This document shows, in pieces, positions 15,815 through 30,901 of a DNA stretch of 32,119 bases. Origin of the DNA: a virus. Both the position numbers and the translations under genes were made by a program. The stretch's first letter is position 1; the number at the start of each line of letters is the position of its first letter. The notes below the pieces were generated by a model, which searched no databases, was not told where the DNA came from, and worked only from the letters and a program-made list of their open reading frames with translations. The stretch lies in the IMG/VR virus record IMGVR_UViG_3300035199_000201, positions 1-32,119 of that record; one strand, written 5' to 3'.

Positions 15815-16193
15815 TATTTCTTACGACATAAATGGCGCTGGCGGTGAAATTGCTGTCGCCAAGTATTTTAAAGTATATCCAGATCTTTCCACAGGGCCAC
15901 ACCGGCGCGGACATGATCTTACGGTGGGTGGATCAACCATTGATGTAAAAGCCACTACATATAATCCCGGCTATCTACAGTGCAAAACATATAAACAAGT
16001 AACTGATGCGGATTGGTATGTACTGGTGCATGCCCATTTCCCAGAGTTCACAATTCTAGGTTGCGCACCGGCAGAAGAATTACTGCAAGATCACAATATT
16101 AAAGATATGGGCTATGGCCCTGTATATCACCTTGAACAATCACAACTTTATTCTATTAAGCAAATGTCTAACGATGCTCTACTACCCTTTTGA
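15708..16193 (+). CDS. PD-(D/E)XK nuclease-like protein (161 aa)
   Basis: The core reads GAGGEIAVAKYF (residues about 43-54, Glu in helix 1), HDLTVGGSTIDVKAT (about 69-83, with Asp and D-V-K as the catalytic pair) and later Q...DADWYVLV (about 96-107). This is the standard order of a restriction-like PD-(D/E)XK fold. The start overlaps the previous gene by 107 bases but has an AGGA sequence at a proper distance, so I keep it. It is followed by another protein of the same superfamily, and a DNA methyltransferase is 600 bases downstream. Substrate unknown. Confidence 0.65.
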   Translation: MKMTLNTVEQSLATLAGMHRLLQNIQNGTNYSKKRNISYDINGAGGEIAVAKYFKVYPDLSTGPHRRGHDLTVGGSTIDVKATTYNPGYLQCKTYKQVTDADWYVLVHAHFPEFTILGCAPAEELLQDHNIKDMGYGPVYHLEQSQLYSIKQMSNDALLPF

Positions 16194-16576
16194 CTATGCA
16201 TAGCATCTCCAAGGGTAAAATTGGTGAACTGGCTGTCAGAAAAAATTTGGTGGAAAGTGGTTATAATATTTATATCCCCGAATGTGATTCAGCGCAAGTT
16301 GATCTCATTGTTGAACTGGAGAGCGGATTAATGAAAAGAGTGCAAATTAAGTCAGTGTTTTCCGACAAAGCCAAAACTTCCATTGAAGTTAACACTAAGA
16401 AATATGTGAACTCAGGACGGGTGGATATAATCGCCGTTTATTATGACGAAATGATCGCCTATGTGCCATACACAAATCAGAAAACATTGCAACTTGCAAT
16501 CTCTACAGCCAAGAATGGACAAACAAAAGACCGTAACTGGTTCTACTCTTATAAACGATTTCCGGAGTTTAGTTGA
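16190..16576 (+). CDS. PDDEXK_5-like endonuclease, candidate homing-type enzyme (128 aa)
   Basis: The protein starts KGKIGELAVRKNLVESGY (Glu13), then has a conserved CDSAQVDLIVEL strand (Asp34) and RVQIKSVF (Gln-x-Lys, about residues 50-55). It continues with VDIIAVYYDEMIAYVP. This is the pattern of the PD-(D/E)XK family Pfam calls PDDEXK_5, which includes a homing endonuclease encoded in a cyanobacterial group I intron (I-Ssp6803I). It is free-standing here. Because this phage carries two ORF-less group I introns in its capsid gene, the enzyme is a candidate for driving their spread in trans. Family assignment is by pattern; the link to the introns is inference. Confidence 0.6.
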   Translation: MTMHSISKGKIGELAVRKNLVESGYNIYIPECDSAQVDLIVELESGLMKRVQIKSVFSDKAKTSIEVNTKKYVNSGRVDIIAVYYDEMIAYVPYTNQKTLQLAISTAKNGQTKDRNWFYSYKRFPEFS

Positions 16577-24615: not shown

Positions 24616-25032
24616 ATGGCAACACCACATAACAAACGTACAGACATAGACAGTGACCAAGTCCGCATGCTCGCGGGTTTTGGTTGCACCATCATCGACA
24701 TTGCAAAATACTTCCAAGTATCTGAGTCAGTAATCCGCAAGCGTTTCCGCGGTGAATATGAAGCTGGTTTGGAGGACGTAAAATTGAAATTGCGCCAGAA
24801 CATTTTGAAAATGTCTTTGGTCGAAAAAAACACCGCCTGCACCATCTTCCTCTGTAAGAATTTTCTTGGTATGAGCGACAAAACAGCCGTTGACTTAACT
24901 GGTAACCTAGAAGCGCTCTTAAAAGAGTGCGGCTTTGAGGACAATCCACTTGATCAAGCAAATAATGAACAGGCAAAAGCTATGGAATCTCTTGGGGTAT
25001 CACCCGACACCACAACAGAGGCTAGTGCATGA
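24616..25032 (+). CDS. terS: terminase small subunit (138 aa)
   Basis: An N-terminal helix-turn-helix (VRMLAGFGCTIIDIAKYFQVSESVIRKRF, residues about 15-43) is followed by a helical oligomerisation region (LKLRQNILKMSLVEKNTACTIFLCKNFLGM). This pattern, especially N-T-A-C-T-I-F-L-C-K-N-F-L-G, is common in phage small terminases. The C-terminus is acidic and flexible, likely contacting the large subunit. It overlaps the large terminase gene by 68 bases. The protein recognises phage DNA for packaging. Confidence 0.85.
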   Translation: MATPHNKRTDIDSDQVRMLAGFGCTIIDIAKYFQVSESVIRKRFRGEYEAGLEDVKLKLRQNILKMSLVEKNTACTIFLCKNFLGMSDKTAVDLTGNLEALLKECGFEDNPLDQANNEQAKAMESLGVSPDTTTEASA

Positions 25033-26292
25033 ATCCCGTGCGCGTTATCGCTGTGTAAACTTCGGCCGTAGGGCCGGTAAATCTTTCTTAGCTGCGCATG
25101 AAATCATGCCGTGGCTCTTAACTCCCAACACTCGCGGCTGGATCGTTGCGCCCAATTATTCATTGGCCCAGAAAGTGGCCAGAGAGGTTAAGCGCATGGT
25201 TATCGTAGATCTCAAGCTACCAGTAACCGCAAAGAAAGAAATCAGCGGAGATCTCTACTTATTACGCCTCGCGGGCCTGAACTCAGAGTTGGTAGTGAAG
25301 TCAGCGGACAGTCCAGACTCCCTCATCGGAGATGGCTGAATGGGGCAACCTATTCATACTTATATACCGGCGTAGACTATCTTATCATTGACGAAATGGC
25401 TTTAATTGCTCGCAGTACATACGAAATGTACTTGCGCCCTACCCTTGCGGACAGGCAGGGCTGGGTACTCTTCTGTTCCACCCCGCGCGGATTCAATTTC
25501 TGGGAAGAGATTGTAAATAAGCGTGGTCAAGATGACAGCTTTCCAGAGTGGGAGAGTTGGACATTCCCATCAACATCCTCGCCGTATTTCAAAGACGACG
25601 TGGAAGAACTCAAAAGGACAATGACCCGTGAAACGTATCTCCAAGAAATCGAAGCCAGCTTCCAATCGTTCTCAGGACGAGTATACAATTTTGATTACCA
25701 CAAGCAAGTGGACGCAAGCGTCGTCTATGACCCCGCCCTGCCAGTTTACGGAGCCATTGATTGGGGCTATCGTAGATCCGCCTTTGGAGTATTCCAAACA
25801 AAGCTGCGTAAATCTGGCTTACCTACCATCTACCAGATAGATGAGATCTGTTTGGAAGACACTAAGACATCTGAGTTAGCTAATCGCATCAATGCGCTGC
25901 CCTATAACTTTGTGCGTTTGTGGGGGGACCCGGCTGGGGCGGGTACTAATTTGCAGAGTGGAATTTCGGATATAGAAGTTTTTCGGAAGCACGGTCTGCG
26001 CGTAGATGTAAAACGAGACAGTATTTCCAGAAACATAGTTTCCGGCGTAGCACATGTCCGGCGCTGGTTCGAGGATGCGCAGGGTGAGACAAGTTTTTTC
26101 ATTAATCCAAGGTGCGAAGTATCCATTCAGAGTTACGAGAACTATCGTTACCCGGAGATCAAGGCAGATCAGCGGGTGCGTGAAGAGCCGTTAAAAGATG
26201 GTCGTTTCGATCATTGTTGTGATATGCTTCGCTACTTTTTAGTTAATTACCATTCTATCAAGAGTCGCAAGGCTGGAATGATAGAATGGTAG
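24965..26292 (+). CDS. terL: terminase large subunit, frame interrupted; candidate translational bypass
   Basis: The packaging motor is encoded in two frames. Part one runs from ATG 24965 to GGC 25334-25336 (124 residues), with Walker A GRRAGKS at residues 34-40, and stops at TGA 25337. Part two is open from upstream of 25372 and carries VDYLIIDE (Walker B), CSTPRGFNFWEE, and nuclease acidic residues in AIDWG, LWGDPAG and RFDHCCDMLRY. Removing the 35 nt from 25337 to 25371 gives SLIGDG-VDYLIIDE, the usual family spacing, and a 430-residue protein. A single -1 slip would instead insert 12 residues before Walker B. Alternatives are a sequencing error or a split gene, but both halves carry intact motifs. 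Confidence 0.85.
25334..25371 (+). promoter_or_regulatory. candidate translational bypass element in terL
   Basis: GGC (25334-25336) is the proposed take-off codon, followed at once by the stop TGA. GAATGGG (25338-25344) pairs with CCTATTC (25349-25355) around a GCAA tetraloop, a 7-bp stem with one G-U pair. After a 13-base A/T-rich linker comes a second GGC (25369-25371), the proposed landing codon. Decoding would resume at GTA 25372. T4 gene 60 has the same parts: identical glycine codons, a stop after take-off, and a tetraloop hairpin in a 50-nt gap. Bypass is inferred, not shown. Confidence 0.55.
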
Positions 26293-29530: not shown

Positions 29531-30901
29531 ATGGCAAGACATTACACAGGTAATTCGGCAACGACTACCACTGAACAATATTTCATTCCCGAGCTATAGT
29601 AATGGCGTTTCTGTAAGTAATTACAGTCATAATTATCGCGGAAAAAAACTGGAAACCTAAGTGCAGCTGCATAAGGCAATCAGAGGTGAAGGCGCAAGCC
29701 AGCCGCAGAGACTAGGTGGTGAGATAATCCACCCACGACTCCGCGACACCCAAACGGGTGAATAGATAGTCCGATACTCCGTAGAAACGCGGAGAGCGTA
29801 GATAAAGAGCTATGCAATAACAAGTGATGGGCAGATGGAATTTATAAGTACTTCGAGAGATCTACTGTGTTCAGGGGTTTGGTTGACGATTACAGCCCCT
29901 TAGTAAAGGGCAAAGGTTTCGGAGATGTAGTTCATATCCCCGAAATGTCAATTATCACCGCAACTTCTAAAGCAGAAGACGCAGACGTTAGTTATGACGC
30001 AACTGCAACAACCGAAACTCAGCTGGCGCTGAATAAACATGAATATGTCGCAAAATTATTTAGTGACATTTCTATGATTCAGTCCGAAGCAGACCTCATG
30101 GACAAGTATGTCCGTATGTTTGGTGAAGCGCTGGGAAGGAAGTTGGATGCAGACATCTGGGCAGAACTGGATGGTTTAAACCAATCTCAGGCGTTGTCCG
30201 CTGATGACACGCTCACAGCAGCTGTGTTTGAATCAGTATTGGCCACACTTGGAGAAAATGACATTCCGTATATGGACGGTCAATGCTCTATGGTTGTGAA
30301 CCCAACTCTGTTTGCAGACATCCTTAACCCATCCGCTGGTATCGCCCAGTACTTCATCAGAAATGATGCAGTTGGCGAAGGTAACCGGGGATTGAGATCT
30401 GGATTAGTTGGATCGCTTTATGGGATTGACGTGTACATGAGTAACACTGTCAGTACCGCCGGCACAAGTTCAACAATTGCCGGAGCTGTTTTTCACAAGA
30501 CAGCGGGAGCCTGCGCAATTCAGCAAGATGTGAGAGTGCAAAATGAGTACTCGATTGACGCATTAGGTACTAAGGTCGTAGCTCAACAATGGGCGTTTGC
30601 GTAGGCGACTATGCAAATTATTAGCGCGGAATTAAGCGGGAACTCTAAGGCCATTATGGCTATGACAACCCGAACCGAAGGCTACACAAAGTGTGGTCAG
30701 GGGCAGAGCGTAGGAAGTGAAATAATCTTCCCAAGAGGCCGCGCCATCTCACTTAGAGATGAAAAGGTACGCCGATACTCCGTAGAAATGCGGAGATCTG
30801 AGATAAAAAGCTCAGTACAACATTTGGATATGATCTATGGATGCAAAATCATCGACGATTCTGACAACATCAAGGGAGTGAAGTTTACTAACGTGGACTA
30901 G
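29531..30901 (+). CDS. major capsid protein, three exons split by two group I introns (298 aa after splicing)
   Basis: Exon 1 is 29531-29595 (MARHYTGNS ... FIPE plus CT), exon 2 is 29827-30583 (starting A-TGG-GCA-GAT, WADGIYKYFERS) and exon 3 is 30827-30901 (DMIYGCKIIDD, ending FTNVD). Joined, they read FIPE-L-WADGIYKYFERSTVFRGL and GTKVVA-DMIYGCK, giving a continuous HK97-type capsid protein of a normal length. Unspliced RNA stops at once after exon 1 and six codons after exon 2. GGAG lies before the ATG. Exon joins follow group I rules (U before the 5' site, G at the intron end), and the frame is kept at both. In isolation, exon 2 would look like a 245-residue protein. Confidence 0.9.
29596..29826 (+). 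ncRNA. group I intron 1 in the major capsid gene (231 nt, ORF-less)
   Basis: The core has P2 (29611-29616 / 29621-29626), P3 (29637-29642 / 29740-29745), P7 GACTA / TAGTC (29710-29714 / 29767-29771), a P7.1 hairpin (29715-29733) and P8 ACCC / GGGT (29748-29751 / 29756-29759). It is completed by P9 (29777-29794) and P9.1 (29796-29815). The extra hairpin between P7 and P3 is a subgroup IA feature. The guide GGC (29604-29606) pairs with exon-end GCU, giving the U-G pair at the 5' splice site; the last intron base is G. No endonuclease gene is inside. Confidence 0.92.
30584..30826 (+). ncRNA. group I intron 2 in the major capsid gene (243 nt, ORF-less)
   Basis: This intron matches intron 1 helix by helix: P2 GCGTAG / CTATGC (30599-30614), P3 GCGCGG / CCGCGC (30624-30629 / 30739-30744), P7 GCGTA / TACGC (30708-30712 / 30768-30772), P7.1 GGAAG / CTTCC, P8 ATCTC / GAGAT, P9 CTCCG / CGGAG and P9.1 CTGAG / CTCAG. 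The guide GGC (30592-30594) lies 8 bases after the 5' site, as in intron 1. An open frame at 30611-30901 through it is only a shadow joined to exon 3. Confidence 0.9.

Follow-up and report, generated by a model that had tools for sequence, protein, structure and literature searches.

A major capsid gene with two insertions

The window (the whole stretch of DNA analysed, 32,119 bp) carries head, tail, replication and integrase genes of a tailed phage. Its major capsid gene (29531-30901) raises the question of how a capsid protein can be made from a gene that cannot be read through: in the unspliced reading, a stop directly follows codon 22, within a first insert, and a second stop lies 6 codons into another. 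The answer proposed here is that the capsid gene of this uncultured phage is interrupted by two group I introns of 231 and 243 nt, both without an open reading frame (ORF), which belong to separate sublineages of one intron family and whose excision would yield a 298-aa capsid protein. On the comparisons described below, we place the probability of this reading at approximately 94%. The exons and introns are as follows.

29531-29595, plus strand: capsid exon 1, 21 codons plus 2 nt, ending GAGCT (spliced ORF; colinear with the uninterrupted gene of contig L001)
29596-29826, plus strand: intron 1, ORF-less group I, 231 nt, ending in G (absent from L001 and 79 other relatives; covariance model 174 bits; covariation)
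29827-30583, plus strand: capsid exon 2, 757 nt, ending GTAGCT (spliced ORF; 80 relatives of approximately 78-98% identity)
30584-30826, plus strand: intron 2, ORF-less group I, 243 nt, ending in G (absent from L001 and 79 other relatives; covariance model 180 bits; covariation)
30827-30901, plus strand: capsid exon 3, 24 codons plus stop (spliced ORF; colinear with L001)

When joined, the exons (65 + 757 + 75 nt) form an ORF of 298 aa with no internal stop. The matches of this protein to Phage_capsid_4 (E-value: 2e-11) and to the phrog_267 major head protein (E-value: 4e-36) cover the greater part of it and span both junctions, and residues 8-286 align over both joins with uninterrupted Pelagibacter phage capsid genes. 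The spliced RNA would contain CCCGAGCT joined to ATGGGCAG at the first junction and GTCGTAGCT joined to GATATG at the second, and the corresponding junction peptides expected in the protein are FIPELWADGIYK and one spanning KVVA-DMIYG. The first-pass annotation, made from the letters of the window, had predicted that splicing restores one continuous capsid protein, and the open frame and the two matches bear this out. Its coordinates and lengths (231 and 243 nt), the spacing of 8 nt from each 5' splice site to its guide GGC, the G that ends each intron and the exons ending in GCU are likewise all present in the sequence.

Intron boundaries and empty sites

Among 2.9 million viral contigs, a scan identified 193 capsid relatives; 80 of them were retained, and both junctions are unbroken in every one of these. 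The most informative comparison is with L001, whose capsid protein shares 98% amino-acid identity with that of the window. Its DNA is approximately 96% identical over approximately 5 kb (96-99% for the capsid exons) and aligns without gaps to the spliced window sequence, with both sites empty. These empty sites, together with the reading frame, fix the boundaries of both introns; at these boundaries, each 5' exon ends in U and each intron in G. The flanks of site 2 are identical in the window and L001. At site 1, L001 has GAA TTG where the window has GAG CTA: three of four bases next to the junction differ, all silently, and these differences give rise to the GCU to which the intron 1 guide pairs. 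A G at the guide-paired exon position of site 1 is found in 8/8 intron-bearing genes compared to 11/80 uninterrupted genes (p = 1e-6, uncorrected for kinship).

Group I fold and guide-target pairing

The elements of the two introns that define the predicted fold and the exon target are listed below.

29593-29595, plus strand: 5' exon GCU of intron 1, P1 partner of the guide (family-wide covariation test)
29604-29606, plus strand: intron 1 guide (IGS) GGC (family-wide covariation test)
29637-29642, plus strand: intron 1 P3 5' strand CGCGGA, pairing with 29740-29745 (13-intron covariation)
29710-29714, plus strand: intron 1 P7 5' strand GACTA, pairing with 29767-29771 and forming a pseudoknot with P3 (13-intron covariation)
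29740-29745, plus strand: intron 1 P3 3' strand TCCGCG (13-intron covariation)
29767-29771, plus strand: intron 1 P7 3' strand TAGTC (13-intron covariation)
30581-30583, plus strand: 5' exon GCU of intron 2, P1 partner of the guide (family-wide covariation test)
30592-30594, plus strand: intron 2 guide (IGS) GGC (family-wide covariation test)
30625-30629, plus strand: intron 2 P3 5' strand CGCGG, pairing with 30739-30743 (13-intron covariation)
30708-30712, plus strand: intron 2 P7 5' strand GCGTA, pairing with 30768-30772 (13-intron covariation)
30739-30743, plus strand: intron 2 P3 3' strand CCGCG (13-intron covariation)
30768-30772, plus strand: intron 2 P7 3' strand TACGC (13-intron covariation)

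Using an intron-internal motif common to both window introns, 16 other contigs were fetched. For 11 fetched introns with clear ends, removal restores a capsid frame or another long frame. A single P2-P9 fold, including the P3/P7 pseudoknot, fits 13 introns: 99.2% of 598 cells are paired, and 24/46 pairs show double-sided changes (0/500 shuffles as high), while sliding the partner strand by 1-3 columns lowers pairing to 32-39%. P3 is paired in 94.9% of cells (double-sided changes in 5/6 pairs) and P7 in 100% (2/5 pairs). The helix P7.1 between P7 and P3', a trait of subgroup IA, is present, with double-sided changes in 4/5 pairs. All core helices are intact in both window introns, whose folding free-energy z-scores are -2.8 and -5.3. 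The five helices in which the first-pass annotation had reported paired changes (P2, P7, P7.1, P8 and P9.1) were all found, and its central proposal, that one capsid gene holds a pair of homologous group I introns, neither with an ORF, agrees with the fold, the covariation and the empty sites.

A covariance model of the core was built from the 13 introns. Within the window it matches the two introns alone, at 174 and 180 bits, although both are training sequences and these scores are therefore not independent. It has no match in the 80 uninterrupted capsid relatives and has 142 in the remaining fetched loci. A general model search had also been put forward as a check, and here the outcome was negative: Rfam RF00028 matches neither intron, nor anything else in the window, even at E ≤ 10. 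However, RF00028 does match an intron with the same layout at L205:1907-2112 (46.7 bits, E-value: 1e-8, just below the cut-off of 50). As this intron is a member of the well-supported clade of intron 1, the silence of RF00028 on the window introns probably reflects a limit of sensitivity.

The large terminase region of the window also looks split: an ORF ending at the stop at 25339 (24935-25339) is followed in another frame by a terminase ORF (25396-26292) that stays open back to 25192. The family model has no match in this region, and the split has the look of a frameshift, whether genuine or due to a sequencing error, rather than of an intron.

The pairing of guide and exon was examined across the family in 73 unique introns with a guide of the form GN'C, for which the complementary exon GNU was sought 5-12 nt upstream. 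It is present for 66/73 introns, compared to 22.6 ± 3.7 with shuffled guides (0/5000). The exon/guide combinations are GGU/GCC (29), GCU/GGC (19), GAU/GUC (11) and GUU/GAC (7), such that all four middle pairs are seen, and the pairing closes with U.G, as in group I introns. The same covariation is visible at homologous site 1, where GCU/GGC in the window and L083 is replaced by GAU/GUC in L146 and by GUU/GAC in L098, L149, L156, L191 and L203. Judged across the family, guide-target covariation pins the predicted 5' splice site and P1 pairing without experiment. P1 comprises three base pairs only in both window introns, and inspection of these by eye gave no convincing P10.

Based on these comparisons, which establish the insert boundaries, fold, guide-target pairing and restored reading frame at the level of sequence, we infer that the window introns are spliced. 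In the transcript, each intron would fold into a group I core (P3-P9), with the guide GGC paired to the last three exon bases GCU (P1) and guanosine bound by P7. Two transesterifications would then excise each intron, ending after its terminal G, and exon joining would produce one 298-aa capsid protein. From the intron family, it is predicted that each intron catalyses its own removal, depends on guanosine and is spliced efficiently during infection; splicing would have to be efficient because a major capsid gene needs bulk expression.

The short P1 and the silence of RF00028 might instead be taken as signs of degenerate introns that have lost splicing, leaving a capsid gene that is dead or used as three fragments. 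This is very unlikely: the core helices are all intact, the exons are still open and 96-99% identical to those of L001, and no second capsid gene was seen among those ORFs of the window that were annotated. That the record is a metagenome contig brings up a further explanation, an assembly artefact or chimera, which can scarcely be credited given that dozens of other contigs have capsid frames made whole by removal of family introns, and that homologous site 1 is occupied by another intron sublineage in seven or more further phage contigs.

An intron family of phage capsid genes

At a threshold of 130 bits there are 80 unique introns, and 69 of these (approximately 86%) lie in or adjoin major capsid exons of at least three capsid families: 58 in the window capsid family, its weak relatives included, 10 in SU10-type capsid genes (PF17236) and one in a PHROG 9953 head protein gene. 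Some of the remainder have a LAGLIDADG gene as a neighbour or lie within tape-measure-like genes. The search motifs, the first of which came from the window introns, are not biased to any gene, as they lie inside the intron. No family intron was found by the model outside the single intron-bearing locus in 15 whole intron-bearing records.

In the window capsid family, 54 introns were placed at 23 positions (at least 23 being occupied). Position changes at least 25 times on the intron tree, compared to a mean of 41.9 in shuffles, every one of which required at least 39. Capsid position is, on this tree, inherited within clades yet has changed many times, and phage capsid genes appear to be the main home of a family whose members have shifted position time and again.

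The first-pass annotation considered two introns per capsid gene to be unusual. This holds for the literature, while within the family such multiplicity is recurrent: two introns per gene are common, three occur in L082 and L171, and four in L164, in which the gene without them reads as one open frame of 296 aa over the full capsid protein. By the model, L205 has four and L173 three; automatic splicing was unclean at the N-terminus of L205, and no splice was found for L173, whose locus is cut. The N-terminal introns of L164 and L205 are of a type without P2 and with the guide much closer to the core. The SU10-type capsid genes of L136, L147, L150, L152, L163 and L169 contain one to three introns near the N-terminus, some of them set apart by exons of just ten codons or so.

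The intron motif had no match in 84,980 bacterial and archaeal genomes and so gives no clue to the host. In cultured phages, most blastn matches of the introns were confined to 25-30 nt of the P9 hairpin, among them matches in introns of Felixounavirus DNA polymerase genes. In L213 (Felixounavirus EC6), a short annotated piece of DNA polymerase has a weak family-model match (28-31 bits) on either side, which suggests a polymerase gene with two introns. The Aeromonas jumbo phages PS1 (L209) and ZPAH34 (L211) have introns that score 116 and 114 bits with the family model. In contrast to the capsid introns (approximately 134-211 bits), these are more distant and lie in or between genes of the RNA polymerase region, where, judging from the model, the annotation probably misses an intron.

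Origin of the two introns

The two introns are homologous and lie in one gene; GGC is the guide of both, and their GCU targets are similar. The first-pass annotation suggested that one arose as a copy of the other. The intron tree speaks against such a duplication within the gene. Intron 1 falls in a seven-member clade (support 100/99) with introns of L094, L091, L092, L088, L164 and L205, located at capsid positions 98 and 57, and intron 2 lies outside it, near C-terminal introns of L183 and L082 (weak support, 49/93). Forcing the two together worsens the tree by 80.9 log-likelihood units (AU p = 0.0004). Over the whole intron, intron 1 is 64% identical to intron 2 but 87% identical to the L094 intron (93% in the core). 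As the two are not closest relatives, local duplication was rejected and we regard it as highly improbable. From the tree and the AU test, the capsid gene appears to have received two different members of the intron family. Because the introns are absent from 80 relatives, gain in the lineage of the window phage by two separate acquisitions is the simplest history.

Mobility

Neither window intron (231 and 243 nt) contains an endonuclease gene. It is an even bet that the introns move as DNA, either by collaborative homing, in which a free-standing homing endonuclease works in trans, or by simple recombination when phages co-infect a cell. In T4-like phages, introns without an ORF are known to home in trans (PMC3984707), and the large degree to which capsid position is conserved within clades (25 changes compared to at least 39 in every shuffle) is as expected of allele transfer. 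Allele homing, however, leaves ectopic moves between unlike sites unexplained, and the introns themselves are without an endonuclease gene. The window does encode a PDDEXK_5 endonuclease (16190-16576), which occurs in 5/15 intron-bearing and 0/14 intronless records (p = 0.025, noticed post hoc); in the converse search, starting from PDDEXK_5, a family intron was found in 1/19 further long records. The association was thus not upheld, and because of this result we claim no link between PDDEXK_5 and the introns. The PDDEXK_5 protein is 57-61% identical in four other intron-bearing phages with far more diverged capsids, and it is possibly a widely exchanged nuclease.

Movement guided by the intron RNA can be put forward tentatively. 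Abundant capsid mRNA would offer the intron new GNU targets for reverse splicing, with reverse transcription and recombination then returning it to DNA. Capsid transcripts should rank among the most abundant in an infected cell. The pattern fits such movement because the guide follows the target and the introns have no ORF; within one capsid family, 54 introns are spread over 23 positions and have changed position at least 25 times, which points the same way, as do the sites of intron 1 and its relatives in L091, L092 and L094, which share little beyond GCU followed by A across the splice site. On the other hand, we noticed no gene for a reverse transcriptase in the window, a guide of three bases places very little constraint on its target, and recombination between phages could give the same pattern. 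Moves between unlike sites fit reverse splicing, while position conservation within clades fits allele transfer, and both processes may operate. The more specific proposal of capsid-specialised, protein-free introns, spread by RNA-guided reverse splicing with a three-base guide retuned for each site and accumulating up to four per gene at no protein cost, is doubtful. A 2014 review noted no direct evidence for reverse-splicing mobility (PMC3984707).

Relation to known introns and significance

Group I introns in phage capsid genes are already known (PMC3706429), as are phage genes with several introns (PMC11878797) and a giant virus capsid gene with five (PMC6247863). Mycobacteriophage LittleE has a group I intron in its major capsid gene and BAKA an ORF-less intron in a tail gene, both spliced in infected cells according to RT-PCR (PMC3706429). 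Like the window introns, these interrupt virion genes, follow an exon with U as its 3' base and end in G, and the 265-bp BAKA insert is without an endonuclease. In contrast, the single LittleE capsid intron has a putative homing endonuclease, and there is no description of a family occupying many positions or reaching four introns in a gene (PMC3706429). Lactococcal phage Tuc2009, by its description as cited in PMC3706429, is similar in having a group I intron in a capsid gene. Several group I introns per gene, with splicing shown, occur in Bastillevirinae, but there the four gene clusters include DNA polymerase, ribonucleotide reductase and terminase rather than capsid (a word absent from the main text) and many introns hold homing nuclease genes (PMC11878797). 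By description, Faustovirus E12 resembles the present family in that five of its twelve introns, of group I, lie in the major capsid gene; it differs in being a giant virus of amoebae and in having GIY-YIG endonucleases in two introns (PMC6247863). In the open-access literature (subscription papers and non-PMC preprints lying outside this scope), we found no account of a capsid-centred family of ORF-less introns with many positions and matching guides.

Capsid genes serve as markers for uncultured viruses. Annotation would fragment the window capsid gene, and Rfam RF00028 would give no warning. Phage group I introns have been linked mainly to genes of nucleotide and DNA metabolism, a preference that has been called mysterious (PMC12350094); in contrast, the lineage described here is found overwhelmingly in the major capsid gene. 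Its related ORF-less introns, at many positions and with guides matched to their sites, form a natural data set on how introns reach new sites.
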